12,683 bases of DNA, taken from Oscillospiraceae bacterium. GTDB taxonomy: Bacteria > Bacillota_A > Clostridia > Oscillospirales > Oscillospiraceae. The stretch spans positions 1 through 12,683 of the forward strand of contig JAEDOJ010000025.1 in NCBI GenBank assembly GCA_016302015.1. The letters are read 5' to 3'. Shown here piece by piece: positions 4,390-12,683 of this stretch. The position numbers and the translations under genes were made by a program. How positions within the stretch are numbered: the stretch's first letter is position 1; every line of letters begins with the position of its first letter. The notes under the pieces are model-generated. The model saw only the letters and a list, made by a program, of their open reading frames with translations. It had not been told where the DNA came from and did no database searches.

Positions 4390-4421
4390 GCCTTTCCGGG
4401 GAAAAAGCTCTGGAAAGGTTT
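4388..4421 (-). terminator. Weak hairpin upstream of exoA, possible terminator
   Basis: CCTTTCC (4391-4397) pairs with GGAAAGG (4412-4418), extendable by three pairs including one G-U, around a 14-nt loop. On the minus strand it is followed by the T-rich CTTGTAATTTTTG. It could stop readthrough from the EF-G-like gene. It overlaps the exoA -35, so the two could interfere. Confidence 0.35.
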
Positions 4422-4425
4422 GGAA

Positions 4426-4511
4426 ACACGCTGGCAGACTGCAAAAAAGTTCGGAAGGCGAGCAACTCCCGGCCATCGACGTACAAAGGTACGGTAGACC
4501 GGGAGTTGCGA
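4426..4511 (+). repeat. Dispersed palindromic repeat, copy 1
   Basis: This 86-bp element matches 12578-12662 at about 80 of 86 positions, in the same orientation. It begins ACACGCTG, contains A6 then GTTCGG, and ends in a palindrome: GCAACTCCCGG (4462-4472) pairs with CCGGGAGTTGC (4499-4509). One C-A mismatch (4473/4498) then interrupts the stem. An inner CGTAC (4480-4484) with GTACG (4489-4493) closes an AAAG loop. It lies between the EF-G-like gene and exoA. I do not recognise the family. It could be a REP- or MITE-like element, or a structured RNA or terminator part. Confidence 0.85.
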
Positions 4512-4519
4512 AGCATCTG

Positions 4520-4547
4520 AAGGGAGCTGCAGTTCTGCAGCTCCCTT
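4520..4547 (-). terminator. Strong hairpin just after the EF-G-like gene
   Basis: AAGGGAGCTGCAG (4520-4532) and CTGCAGCTCCCTT (4535-4547) form a perfect 13-bp inverted repeat 10 nt after the stop codon. No T-run follows on either strand, so it may protect or process the 3' end rather than act as a classic intrinsic terminator. Confidence 0.5.
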
Positions 4548-6783: not shown

Positions 6784-8841
6784 TCAGAATTTCAGCAGGA
6801 TATACGAGATCAGCAGGGTTACACCCGCCCACAGCAGCTGGAACGCAGCCAGATGAATGGGAGACACGGCACTGACAGAACCCCAGACGATGAGCAGAGA
6901 GCAGAGCAGCAGACCGAACAGACCGGCGAAGAGATTCATCCACAGGCCGGTTCTGGCTGTGATCCGAAGGGTGCGTCCGGCGGCAACGGTCATGGCAAAG
7001 GCACCGAAGGTATCCTTGGCGATCAAAGCCCCCTGGGAAGATATTTCGGCGTTTTCCTTTTCGGAAAGCCGGAGACGCTCCGTGTATTTGGGATAAATCA
7101 GGGAATCCACAGGCAGCTCATACTTGGCAGCGATCAGCTCCGGGGTAATGAGGAAGTCTCTGGTGGCAAGCACCACGGAGAAATTCCGATTGGCCAGAAC
7201 CTCCTTCAGACCGCTGCCCGTGGAGGGGTTGGGCTTATACCTTATGGCGAAAATTCCTGCCAGCTCCCCGTTGACGGAGACATAGACCGCCTGACGAACC
7301 CGGGTGCCTGCGGGCATATGCACGCCCATGCTCCGCATAAAGCTGAGGGTGCCCACCAGAACCACGTTCTGATCGATTTCCGCTCCGATGCCGTTGTTCT
7401 CGTAGACCCGATGGTCTGTGAGCTGCAGGGGCTTGCGGAGAGGGGCGGTGAGCAGGGAGCGGAACAGACCGGTGAGAGGACTGTCCACCAGCTCCACTGC
7501 GGCAAGGGCCAGAGGAATCACTTCCTCCGCCCGGTAACCGTTGAAGAGCTTCATGCCGTTGGAGCTGCAGTCCGCACTGGGGAAGAGATCCTCGTCCCGA
7601 AGAATCAGCGTATGCTTTCCACCGAAGAGCTTTGCGCTGTGCCAGCCGCACAGGGCGCCTCCGAAGCCGGACAGCCGCTTGGCAAGCACCCGGCTGGGGA
7701 CGGCATAGGCCAGCATCCCCGTACAGGGCACGGAGCAGGTGAGCAGCAGAAGCCACAGCAGCAGGAAATTGGTGTTGGTTCGCACCGCAAACAAAACCGC
7801 GAGGATCATGGTCACCGGCAGCAGCAGGGTGGAGTAGACGCACAAAACCTTCTGGGGGAAATCCGGCCGGAGGAGGTTCTGAATGTAATCCTTCATGTCT
7901 GCGGGACTGCGGTGGAGGGAATCGGTATTGGGAAGCAGCTTTGGGGTGTCGTAAATGCCCATGGGACTGTCGAAGGAACAGACCGTGTGCAGGGTGTGGA
8001 ACATACCGCTGCGGTTTGCAACCAAAGAGTAGAAGTGGAAATACAGCAGGAGCAGCAGGGGCAGACAGTAGGTCTGCACCGTGGCAGACAGGGCGGTAAT
8101 TCCCTGAATGACGCCGAGAAGCACTGCAAGGGTGGTCAGGGTGTAGGTGCTGATTCTTGCGTGGAGCAAATCCAGCACGCCCCGGATGGGAACCTCCACC
8201 GCCAGAAGCAGGGACAGACCCAGTGCGGACAGGGCGATCGTCGACCCATATTTCTCCAGACCGGGGAAAAAGGAACCGGACAGCACCTGATAAAGCAGGA
8301 GAAACACGCTGAACAGAGCAATCAACGCCAACAAATACAGACGGATGTGCTGAATCAGCAGGCCGGAATGGTATTTTTTCAAAAGCTGGTGGGGAGAATA
8401 CTCCACCGGCGAGGATTCCGTGGGAGCTTGGGAAGCCGCCTTTTCCGCCTGAGACGGCTTCTTTTTGGGAAGGTCATTTTCCGGGAGATCATCCACCGGC
8501 TGAAAGGGTCTGGTTTTGGCGGAAGAATCTCTGACCGGCTGAAAGACTGCCGTATCTCCTTTTTTCCCGGAAGAGCCTGTTCTGCTGTGGGAAACCGGAC
8601 GGAAGGCAGCGGTGTCGCCCCTTCGGAAGGCAGCGGTTTCCTGGGAAACCGGACGGAAGGTGGCGGTGTCGCCCTTTCGGAAGGCTGCGGTATCCTGGGA
8701 AACCGGACGGAAGGTCATGGTATCCCCCGACGCCTTTCCGGGACGGGAGGAGGAACCGGTGTAAACCCGGGTGTCTTCCTCAAGCTGACCCTGGTCAGAC
8801 ACGTCCGGCCTATTCAATTGTTCCGGATCGCGCCGCTTCAT
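6784..8841 (-). CDS. Membrane protein resembling a catalytically dead P1B-type ATPase
   Basis: This encodes 685 aa. Residues 1-155 are polar and probably disordered, with FRPVSQ-type repeats at 41-118. Hydrophobic segments lie near 163-187, 199-219, 231-252, 255-272, 331-353, 358-380, 631-655 and 659-682, the eight-helix plan of P1B metal pumps. VPC (371-373) in helix six replaces the CPC motif. Residues 400-628 follow the order of a P/N domain: VDSPLT for the SEHP region (about 452-457), NGIGAEI for GxGxxG (483-489), VVLATRD for the TGD region (556-562), and AKDTFGAF for GDGxND (608-615). The DKTGT phosphorylation motif is absent (RDEDLF, 415-420), the actuator region is only about 58 aa, and no TGE is present. 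I infer a pseudo-ATPase with a sensing, scaffold or membrane role rather than a pump. The ATG is 3 nt after rlmB with AGAGGGG 7 nt upstream. No clear terminator follows, so readthrough into the EF-G-like gene is possible. Confidence 0.85.
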   Translation of the reverse strand: MKRRDPEQLNRPDVSDQGQLEEDTRVYTGSSSRPGKASGDTMTFRPVSQDTAAFRKGDTATFRPVSQETAAFRRGDTAAFRPVSHSRTGSSGKKGDTAVFQPVRDSSAKTRPFQPVDDLPENDLPKKKPSQAEKAASQAPTESSPVEYSPHQLLKKYHSGLLIQHIRLYLLALIALFSVFLLLYQVLSGSFFPGLEKYGSTIALSALGLSLLLAVEVPIRGVLDLLHARISTYTLTTLAVLLGVIQGITALSATVQTYCLPLLLLLYFHFYSLVANRSGMFHTLHTVCSFDSPMGIYDTPKLLPNTDSLHRSPADMKDYIQNLLRPDFPQKVLCVYSTLLLPVTMILAVLFAVRTNTNFLLLWLLLLTCSVPCTGMLAYAVPSRVLAKRLSGFGGALCGWHSAKLFGGKHTLILRDEDLFPSADCSSNGMKLFNGYRAEEVIPLALAAVELVDSPLTGLFRSLLTAPLRKPLQLTDHRVYENNGIGAEIDQNVVLVGTLSFMRSMGVHMPAGTRVRQAVYVSVNGELAGIFAIRYKPNPSTGSGLKEVLANRNFSVVLATRDFLITPELIAAKYELPVDSLIYPKYTERLRLSEKENAEISSQGALIAKDTFGAFAMTVAAGRTLRITARTGLWMNLFAGLFGLLLCSLLIVWGSVSAVSPIHLAAFQLLWAGVTLLISYILLKF
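8554..8721 (-). repeat. 54-bp tandem repeat encoding an 18-residue FRPVS tail repeat
   Basis: GAAACCGGAC recurs at 8591, 8645 and 8699, an exact 54-bp period, within the 5' part of the pseudo-ATPase gene. The units encode T(M/A)(T/A)FRPVSQ(D/E)TAAFR(K/R)GD. The third unit diverges after FRPVS, and looser FQPV copies continue to about 8488. Confidence 0.85.
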
Positions 8842-9818: not shown

Positions 9819-11729
9819 ATGCCCAATAATAACAATCAAAACGGAAATAATGACAATCGTTCCAAAACTCCGCTGATCGTACTGGCAGTGGTGGTGATTG
9901 TCTTTACAATCTTCGGCAACCGGATCATGTCCATGCTGTTCGCCGCGGGACAGGAGGAGGTTACTTATCATGACTTCCTCTCCTCGGTGGAAAACAACGA
10001 GATTGAGGACGTAAAGATCGGCGAAACCCAGATTTTTTACGAGAAAAAGACGGATGAGGAAGGCAATCGGAACAAGGTTCAGTATTATACCACCCGGCTG
10101 GCAGATGTGGATCTGACGGAAGTGGTGCAGAAGCTTCATGCCAACGGCGTTGACTTTAACGGCGTGGCAACGGATGACGACAATTCCTCCTTCTTCCTTT
10201 CCTGGATTCTGCTGCCTCTGCTGATGTATTTCGGCTTTGTCCTGCTGCTGCGCTTTCTTGCAAACCGCAGCGGCGGCAGCGGGGGCTTCGGCGGTCTTGG
10301 TGGCATGGGAAGCATCGGGAAAAGCAAGGCCAAGGTTTATATGGAAAAGGAAACCGGTGTGACCTTTCAGGACGTGGCCGGTCAGGATGAAGCCAAGGAG
10401 TCTCTGGTGGAGATTATCGATTTCCTCCATAACCCGAAAAAATACACCGCCATCGGCGCAAAGCTGCCCAAGGGCGCTCTGCTGGTTGGCTCTCCCGGCA
10501 CCGGCAAGACCCTCCTTGCCAAGGCCGTTGCCGGCGAGGCCCATGTGCCTTTCTTCTCCATTTCCGGCTCCGACTTTGTGGAAATGTTCGTGGGCGTTGG
10601 CGCAAGCCGGGTTCGTGACCTGTTTCAGGAGGCCTCCAAGGTGGCGCCTGCCATCATCTTCATCGATGAAATTGACGCCATCGGCCGCAGCCGTGACAGC
10701 AAGCTGGGCGGCAACGACGAACGGGAGCAGACCTTGAACCAGCTTCTGGCGGAAATCGACGGCTTCGACTCCTCCAAGGGCGTGGTCATTCTGGCCGCCA
10801 CCAACCGTCCGGAAATTCTGGATAAGGCGCTGCTTCGGGCAGGCCGCTTTGACCGGCGGATCATTGTTGACCGTCCCAATCTGGAGGGGCGGTATCAGAC
10901 CCTTCTGGTTCACACCAAGAATATCCGGATGTCTGAGGACGTAGACCTGCGGAAGCTGGCTCAGGCCACCGCCGGCGCTGTGGGCGCCGACCTTGCCAAC
11001 CTGGTCAACGAGGCTGCCCTCCGGGCAGTCCGCCAGGGCAGAAAGGCGGTCAATCAGCAGGATTTGCTCACCTCCTTTGAGGTGGTAATTGCCGGCACGG
11101 AGAAAAAGGGCACCGTGCTGACGGACATTGAGAAACGAATCGTTTCCTACCATGAGGTGGGTCATGCTCTGGTGGCGGCGCTGCGGAAGCACTCCCAGCC
11201 GGTCTCCAAAATCACCATTGTGCCTCATACCTCCGGGGCATTGGGCTATACCATGCAGATGCCGGAGGAGGAAAAATATCTGAATTCCAGGGACGATCTG
11301 CTGATTGAGCTGCAAACCCTGTTGGGCGGACGGGCTGCGGAGCAGGTGGTCTTCGGTATTCAGACCACCGGTGCGGCCAACGACATTCAGCGGGCGACTG
11401 ACCTTGCCAGAAAAATGGTTACCCAGTTCGGCATGAGCGATCAGATTGGACTCATGGCATTGGCAACCACGCAGAATGAATATCTGGGCAGTCAGGCCTA
11501 TATGGACTGCGCCCAAACCACCGCTTCGGAAGCGGATCGGGAAGTCCGGAACCTGCTCAATGACTGTTATGAAAAAGCAAAGACCCTGCTGCAGGAAAAC
11601 CGGGAGCTTCTGGATGAAATTTCCCTGTATCTGCTGCAAAAAGAAACCATTACCGGCGATGACCTGATGGCCTATGTAAACGCTGATTCCAAAAAGCTGC
11701 CCGCCGGAGAAACAGAGGAGGAAGCATGA
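9819..11729 (+). CDS. ftsH: ATP-dependent membrane zinc metalloprotease FtsH
   Basis: This membrane-anchored hexameric AAA+ protease degrades misfolded membrane proteins and short-lived regulators. It has 636 residues. An Asn-rich start precedes membrane helix 1 (about 18-40), an extracytoplasmic region, helix 2 (about 126-147) and a glycine-rich linker (151-167). The AAA+ module has Walker A GSPGTGKT (224-231), pore loop FVEMFVGVG, Walker B IIFIDEID (279-286) and the second region of homology with R340 and R343. The zinc site is HEVGH (445-449; most relatives have HEAGH) with D522 as the expected third ligand, and [11 protein letters not shown] follows at 503-513. No active residue is missing. 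GGAG lies 9 nt before the ATG. The stop codon overlaps the mscS start as ATGA, so the two are co-transcribed and probably translationally coupled. Confidence 0.97.
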
Positions 11730-12545: not shown

Positions 12546-12575
12546 AAAAGAGCCGACCCGCCGGTCGGCTCTTTT
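12546..12575 (+). terminator. Rho-independent terminator of ftsH-mscS
   Basis: A perfect 13-bp stem, AAAAGAGCCGACC (12546-12558) with GGTCGGCTCTTTT (12563-12575), has a 4-nt loop and ends in TTTT. It begins 2 nt after the mscS stop codon. The A/T symmetry makes it able to work in both directions. Confidence 0.9.
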
Positions 12576-12577
12576 CC

Positions 12578-12662
12578 ACACGCTGACAGACTGAAAAAAG
12601 TTCGGAAGTCGAGCAACTCCCGGTCGTCGGCGTACAAAGGTACGGTAGACCGGGAGTTGCGA
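12578..12662 (+). repeat. Dispersed palindromic repeat, copy 2
   Basis: This 85-bp element matches 4426-4511 with five substitutions and one missing C. Its stem is longer than in copy 1: GCAACTCCCGGTC (12613-12625) pairs perfectly with GACCGGGAGTTGC (12648-12660), 13 bp. An asymmetric internal loop follows, then CGTAC (12631-12635) with GTACG (12640-12644) around AAAG. It starts 2 nt after the mscS terminator. The A6 run (12594-12599) reads as T6 on the opposite strand, 13 nt beyond the palindrome. Confidence 0.85.
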
Positions 12663-12683
12663 TGGAAGCCAAAATTCTTGCGA
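12662..12683 (+). CDS. Possible start of a gene cut by the right edge
   Basis: An ATG at 12662 opens a frame reading MEAKILA to the window end. GGGAG (12652-12656), part of the repeat palindrome, lies 5 nt upstream and could serve as a ribosome binding site. Seven codons are too few to establish a gene or suggest a product, so this is only a candidate. Confidence 0.2.

Follow-up and report, generated by a model that had tools for sequence, protein, structure and literature searches.

What kind of sequence would occur twice, beside different genes, in one short contig of an Oscillospiraceae bacterium? The window (the whole stretch of DNA analysed, 12,683 nt) contains two segments, 4426-4511 and 12578-12662, that have the same orientation and are identical in 80 of 86 alignment columns, as the initial annotation had reported. 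Over a 61-nt gapless part, 57 positions equal those of copy 1, and the next best place in a scan of the + strand of the window reaches 29. The right arm is identical between the copies and the differences are confined to the left part, a pattern also described in that annotation and confirmed on the alignment. The long palindrome recognised in both segments folds far better than shuffled sequence: + strand RNA folding gives -37.9 and -40.3 kcal/mol (z -4.84 and -5.07), equalled by none of 200 shuffles for either copy, and the - strand likewise folds well (z -3.15 and -4.00; one of 200 shuffles each).

Extent and setting of the two window copies

The similarity of the segments stands, but their proposed extent as an 86-bp unit does not. 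Copy 2 aligns at 95% over 113 nt (12571-12683) with a copy in a related genome, G016, and this similarity stops only where the window does; the 86-bp unit is accordingly one part of a larger, cut-off element. By alignment A2 and a covariance model, R1, copy 1 (4426-4511, + strand) is the left half of this element only, whereas copy 2 (12578-12683, + strand) starts at the right arm of the left-end hairpin and is cut by the window end, with its right part beyond; the model scores of 78.3 bits (4415-4522) and 95.2 bits (12558-12675) are not independent, because both copies are among the 30 chosen copies from which R1 was built. The left arm of the left-end hairpin is missing in both copies, and copy 1 also lacks the right half. 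The window copies are probably truncated relics.

Several parts of the complete element can be traced on the + strand of copy 1. Its alignment places the right arm left over from the left-end hairpin, ACACGCTG, at 4426-4433, and an inner terminal-repeat-like stretch, CAGACTGCAAAAAAGTTCGG, the 5' strand of a helix termed P1, at 4435-4454. Folding and covariation delimit the core hairpin P2, with its conserved inner CGTAC/GTACG stem, at 4462-4509. The adjoining AGCATCTG (4512-4519) may, to judge by its letters, be a remnant of the right end (..CAGTCTG). A perfect hairpin, AAGGGAGCTGCAGTTCTGCAGCTCCCTT (4520-4547), abuts copy 1 and probably terminates an EF-G-like gene on the - strand; it differs from the weak hairpin CCTTTCC..GGAAAGG to the left (4391-4418). 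Copy 1 lies between the start of an exonuclease-III-like gene and this terminator. Copy 2 follows directly on the likely intrinsic terminator hairpin of an MscS-like gene (12546-12575, + strand), its probable target site, and contains P2 at 12613-12660 and GCCAAAAT (12668-12675, + strand), the 5' strand of a helix P3 whose partner is beyond the window. The three gene names are readings of the translations alone.

A widespread family of short elements in related genomes

Complete copies were reached through a protein encoded at 6784-8841 of the window, which has counterparts at 44-47% identity in four relatives (metagenome-assembled genomes, one assigned to Bacillota and three to Oscillospiraceae). 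One of the four, G003, carries the repeat in at least 40 copies among 52 candidates; a DNA similarity search did not find it in the other three. Read with their flanks, the G003 copies measure about 255 bp, carry CAGTCTGTCGAAAAACT and ACTTTTTTGACACTCTG at their ends, and are bordered by the same hairpin left and right. Across genomes, 104 of 108 copies are 230-289 bp long, and the element, a non-autonomous one (MITE), is short and lacks a transposase gene.

The expectation that two copies in the window imply many in a genome holds in relatives: the core motif occurs in 23 of 28 genomes, three of the 28 having been taken as non-carriers, with up to 48 copies. The counts include 48 (G003), 43 (G014), 27 (G010) and 26 (G169) against 0-3 per genome for a reversed-pattern control; a count of 4 in G167 barely exceeds its own control (3). 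Scans with R1 scored at most nine places per genome, and copy numbers were therefore taken from core-motif counts. At E 1e-3, R1 has matches in 55 of the 394 genomes of the order, although in 14 of these the best E is above 1e-4 and the match may be chance; at E 1e-6 it has matches in 30 of 391 genomes of the class. In a similarity search of 40 relatives, 13 matched, 10 of them through the element itself; among the matches listed, G017, G018 and G040 matched only via that end of the query which holds the target hairpin. G018 and G017, with no MITE match listed, have repeated matches to a hairpin resembling the one targeted at locus L019 (GGGGTCAGGCA..TGCCTGACCCC), which perhaps represents another repeat family.

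Phage and plasmid records yielded no DNA similar to the repeat, and exact-pattern scans of viral contigs gave no matches. A shorter pattern hit at least 120 stretches of viral contigs; four of 80 listed hold a real element by R1, the rest presumably being chance. The element or truncated relatives of it thus occur in contigs filed as viral (L261 at 10170-10293, L264, L290 and L318), in L261 with a duplicated hairpin by eye, and such contigs are a possible route of spread. Rfam 15 at gathering thresholds, applied to the window and 18 loci, reported nothing on the element. By E-value, five more loci gave three sub-threshold matches, one of which overlaps an element (STnc50, on the L006 copy at its left end; 30.4 bits, E 0.17, threshold 55); the suggested Rfam comparison hence identifies no family above threshold. 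Many copies are located at contig ends of draft genomes, which implies that the family also breaks assemblies.

A covarying fold inside the element

The suggestion that the repeats are structured is supported by compensatory change. Alignment A3 holds 55 of 68 non-redundant full copies, and their + strand folds as a left-end hairpin, P1, P2 and P3, where P1 is formed by the inner terminal repeats and P2 is the core hairpin of the window repeats. Across the 55 copies, 91.6% of cells are paired, compared with 38-49% when partners are slid, and both sides have changed in 496 cells, compared with 63-117; these statistics come from related sequences, and part of the excess is built in, since the structure was derived from the same alignment. 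P3 is paired in just 80% of cells. The measure of further pair types, one of five used, is less decisive, with 25 of 500 shuffles reaching it. The balance of G.U over A.C mismatches is 51 to 12 in P2, 32 to 14 in P1, 10 to 11 in the left-end hairpin and 15 to 31 in P3. P2 therefore looks selected on one strand, and the left-end hairpin has no strand preference.

Such a fold could be a mere by-product of nested terminal repeats and have no role itself. Terminal-repeat sequence does make up the left-end hairpin and P1, and the even G.U and A.C counts of the former agree with that view. P2 and P3 are not terminal repeats, however, and the outer P2 stem has double changes at all 16 pairs across the 55 sequences, which makes a purely passive origin of the fold unlikely. 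We propose instead that the fold may have been selected for helping the element to move, as folded DNA or RNA.

Intrinsic terminators as targets and duplication of whole hairpins

The flanks identify the target. We collected 131 copies (28 from G003, 23 from R1-matched loci of the order and 80 others), of which 108 are readable at both ends with flanks; in 21 no right end was found and two have short flanks. These 108 are not independent, since 24 come from G003 and some insertions are common to several genomes. The same sequence flanks both ends in 95 of them, compared with one of 535 shuffled left/right pairs, and 13 have no two-sided match. In 93 of the 108 the duplication abuts the element within 3 nt, with a median length of 27 bp (16-56), and 86 of these 93 duplications are hairpins with at least 7 bp formed from their ends, against 22 of 930 shuffled sequences. 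Left and right duplicates differ at 20 of 1918 stem positions and at 28 of 479 unpaired ones, as expected if both duplicate stems stay under selection. The two duplicates at L186 differ by a compensatory change on both arms. At L183, the right terminator copy is the exact reverse complement of the left.

Gene context agrees with a terminator target. Among 110 copies, 45 lie between convergent genes, 18 and 19 between tandem genes in either orientation, and six between divergent genes (22 not classified); one copy, L028, overlaps a mechanical open reading frame. At one site occupied in G005, G010 has the same flanks with just one hairpin between them, and this hairpin is not the same in sequence. 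The terminator of the MscS gene is a plain hairpin in other relatives; in G004 it hosts, by eye, a similarly built element in reverse orientation, whose core is different and which a BLAST search with the window repeat did not match.

Placement at gene 3' ends, together with strong compensatory change that in P2 is mainly on one strand, is also what one would see if the repeats were a structured non-coding RNA gene or a 3'-UTR module kept for the host, its copies being paralogues at gene ends. Up to 48 copies per genome, duplication of whole hairpins and terminal repeats common with IS1182 (see below) speak against that reading, as do the absence, under strict filters, of any match from 339 of the order's 394 genomes and the lack of an Rfam match above threshold. 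The orientation of the element to the gene in tandem pairs is unbiased (18 versus 19), which disfavours a host-beneficial 3'-UTR module in particular. We hold the whole reading to be very improbable. The earlier idea of a 3'-end module survives in so far as the target is a terminator at gene 3' ends; it fails on orientation.

Probable IS1182-family partner elements

The element's outer repeat points to its probable source of transposase. IS1182-family insertion sequences of the same order have the same outer terminal repeat, CAGNNTGTCRAAAAA (a consensus made here). In G003, the MITE end CAGTCTGTCGAAAAACT and the IS end CAGTCTGTCGAAAAAGC are identical over their first 15 nt, and in G010 the MITE right end equals the IS left end, CAGACTGTCAAAAAA. 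All four transposases tested, including L101, L134 and L144, pass the IS1182 model NF033551 (363-404 bits, cut-off 270). Whole-hairpin duplications flank 10 of 13 IS copies with both ends located (L134, L135, L136, L138, L139, L140, L143, L144, L146 and L162). These ten share the MITE-like outer repeat and target class and differ from the MITE in being about 1.3-1.6 kb long and in carrying a transposase gene; R1, run on all of them except L162, found no P2-type core inside. The remaining three of the 13, and L147, which the end pattern of that count missed, have different hairpins on their two sides.

MITE and IS also meet in a single genome, where a co-resident IS has the same ends and the same kind of target. 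The G003 IS body is unassembled, but nine IS ends can be read at contig ends, all abutting hairpins by eye, and three of them have their hairpin in common with a MITE. The four left ends code for a transposase N-terminus resembling that of L144 (17 aa, E 2e-5). Of the five right ends, four code for a C-terminus resembling that of L145 (22-23 aa, E 1e-4 to 6e-4), and the fifth, a few nucleotides shorter, matches only L134 among transposase ends (E 0.03). Across the order, carriers of the MITE and of L101-like transposases coincide in four of 394 genomes, compared with 5.9 by chance, and a DUF772 domain was found in three of 13 genomes tried; both counts speak against the partnership. This lack of co-occurrence may be due to collapse of multi-copy IS in draft assemblies: G003 has nine IS ends and yet none in the transposase scan, so a draft assembly can hide an IS.

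Other features of these IS merit description. By eye, several copies possess a terminator-like hairpin of their own, just inside one end. In L134 and L101 the left end contains a hairpin of 16-18 bp, its loop bearing a -10-like element, right before the transposase start codon. L134 (39.3 bits) and L101 (19.1 bits) also match R1, their target hairpin and terminal repeat standing where the MITE has its left hairpin; P2 might conceivably derive from the IS left-end hairpin. In L137 (1000-2900), the right end of an IS1182 copy is joined directly to the left hairpin of a MITE. In L097, at the end of G003 contig 16, the left part of a MITE runs straight into an inner fragment of a transposase gene of the IS1182 type, possibly as a deletion derivative or an assembly chimera; this locus was left out of account. 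A sister IS1182 group (end GNGCTGTTGACAAA) has three of nine copies (L151, L153 and L158) between 7-nt repeats, and this repeat is clearly the hairpin loop in L151 and L153; the other six have no clear duplication. The loop-type transposase of L153 scores 379 bits against NF033551 (cut-off 270). As far as the available text of PMC5678879 goes, loop insertion in L151 and L153 fits the third hypothetical pathway given there.

Proposed origin and mobilisation of the family

Very probably, both window repeats are truncated MITEs of a family mobilised in trans by IS1182-family DDE transposases that use intrinsic-terminator hairpins as target. The ends, target class, whole-hairpin duplication, wide spread and covarying fold are present in relatives, and the transposon identity of the family is well supported. 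The MITE-like element moved by a transposase encoded elsewhere, as first proposed, is borne out by terminal repeats, target duplication, copy number and the IS1182 elements with the same ends; movement in trans by an IS1182 transposase is what we infer from them. In the proposed mechanism, the transposase would recognise the terminal repeat common to IS and MITE, and the terminator hairpin would be extruded as a cruciform. The 3' ends of the element would be attached, one per strand, at the hairpin's 5' feet, after which repair would copy the whole hairpin to each side. Beyond the element, each neighbouring gene would then still have a hairpin together with its own tract, so insertion would be mild. 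If whole-hairpin duplication holds for copy 2, its right flank would be expected to repeat AAAAGAGCCGACCCGCCGGTCGGCTCTTTT.

The closest known system, on the available text of PMC5678879 and PMC4923244, is IS1272/TnSha1. It also has an IS1182-type transposase, targets hairpins without fixed sequence that are partly terminators, and inserts at the hairpin base; there, the hairpin is deleted and no target duplication is formed, whereas here the whole hairpin is duplicated. In what is accessible of Wan et al. 2017 (PMC5678879), whole-hairpin duplication is drawn only as a hypothetical branch, pathway b. The present family could likewise replace stem-loops, the second hairpin being pre-existing or arising from later recombination. 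This would agree with the behaviour of IS1272, an IS1182-family element for which the same two sources, in their available parts, give replacement without target duplication, and with the different hairpins on the two sides of three of 13 IS copies and L147. The same sequence on both sides of 95 of 108 MITE and 10 of 13 IS copies, and the one hairpin of the unoccupied relative, render it a highly doubtful account of the family. Reviews by Siguier and colleagues reportedly list palindromic targets for IS1182, together with variable repeats.

A REP/RAYT-type palindrome family dependent on a Y1 tyrosine transposase, the other mobile option raised at first, would also be short, palindromic, intergenic and numerous, but it is rejected as barely credible, with Y1 (RAYT/IS200-type, Y1_Tnp) transposases not found in 11 of 20 draft carrier genomes and with terminal inverted repeats and long target duplications in the element. 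REP elements are not known to combine terminal repeats with long target duplications. Group IIC introns insert beside terminator hairpins, as does the element. IStrons pair an IS with a structured RNA, according to the accessible part of PMC4227781, which invites comparison with the folded element. No intron or other Rfam family matches the element above threshold, and its target duplications point to DNA transposition. Bacterial MITEs, in the available portions of PMC10969869 and PMC6382973, are likewise small and non-coding, with target duplications and terminal repeats common with IS. MITEAba12 has 9-bp duplications of no set sequence (PMC6382973, available portion), whereas those here are 16-56 bp and mostly hairpins, and the inside of the element here, unlike that of MITEAba12 as the same portion presents it, is a covarying fold. 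PMC9587614 appears, from its available part, to be unrelated. Titles and abstract openings, with most subscription papers beyond reach, contained no MITE or IS with whole-terminator duplication, and within that reach a MITE family that joins IS1182 ends to a conserved fold and duplicates whole terminators is new. A stronger version, a new composite mobile element, is possible but tentative: its transposase would be guided by the shape of terminator hairpins, whose near-harmless duplication would be combined with a family-specific P1-P2-P3 fold with a conserved loop, acting as a structure-recognised RNA or single-stranded DNA cofactor of transposition.

Implications for life at terminators

Duplication of a whole hairpin, earlier just a drawn branch, is found in 95 of 108 MITE and 10 of 13 IS copies from many genomes, and strand-transfer geometry on a hairpin thereby becomes directly testable. 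A covarying fold in a MITE is unexpected because MITEs are usually viewed as transposon ends with passive filling, and it offers a defined structure for mutation. Terminator duplication would let the element live at gene ends without cutting off termination, and the terminator-like hairpin inside an IS end would likewise suit life at terminators.
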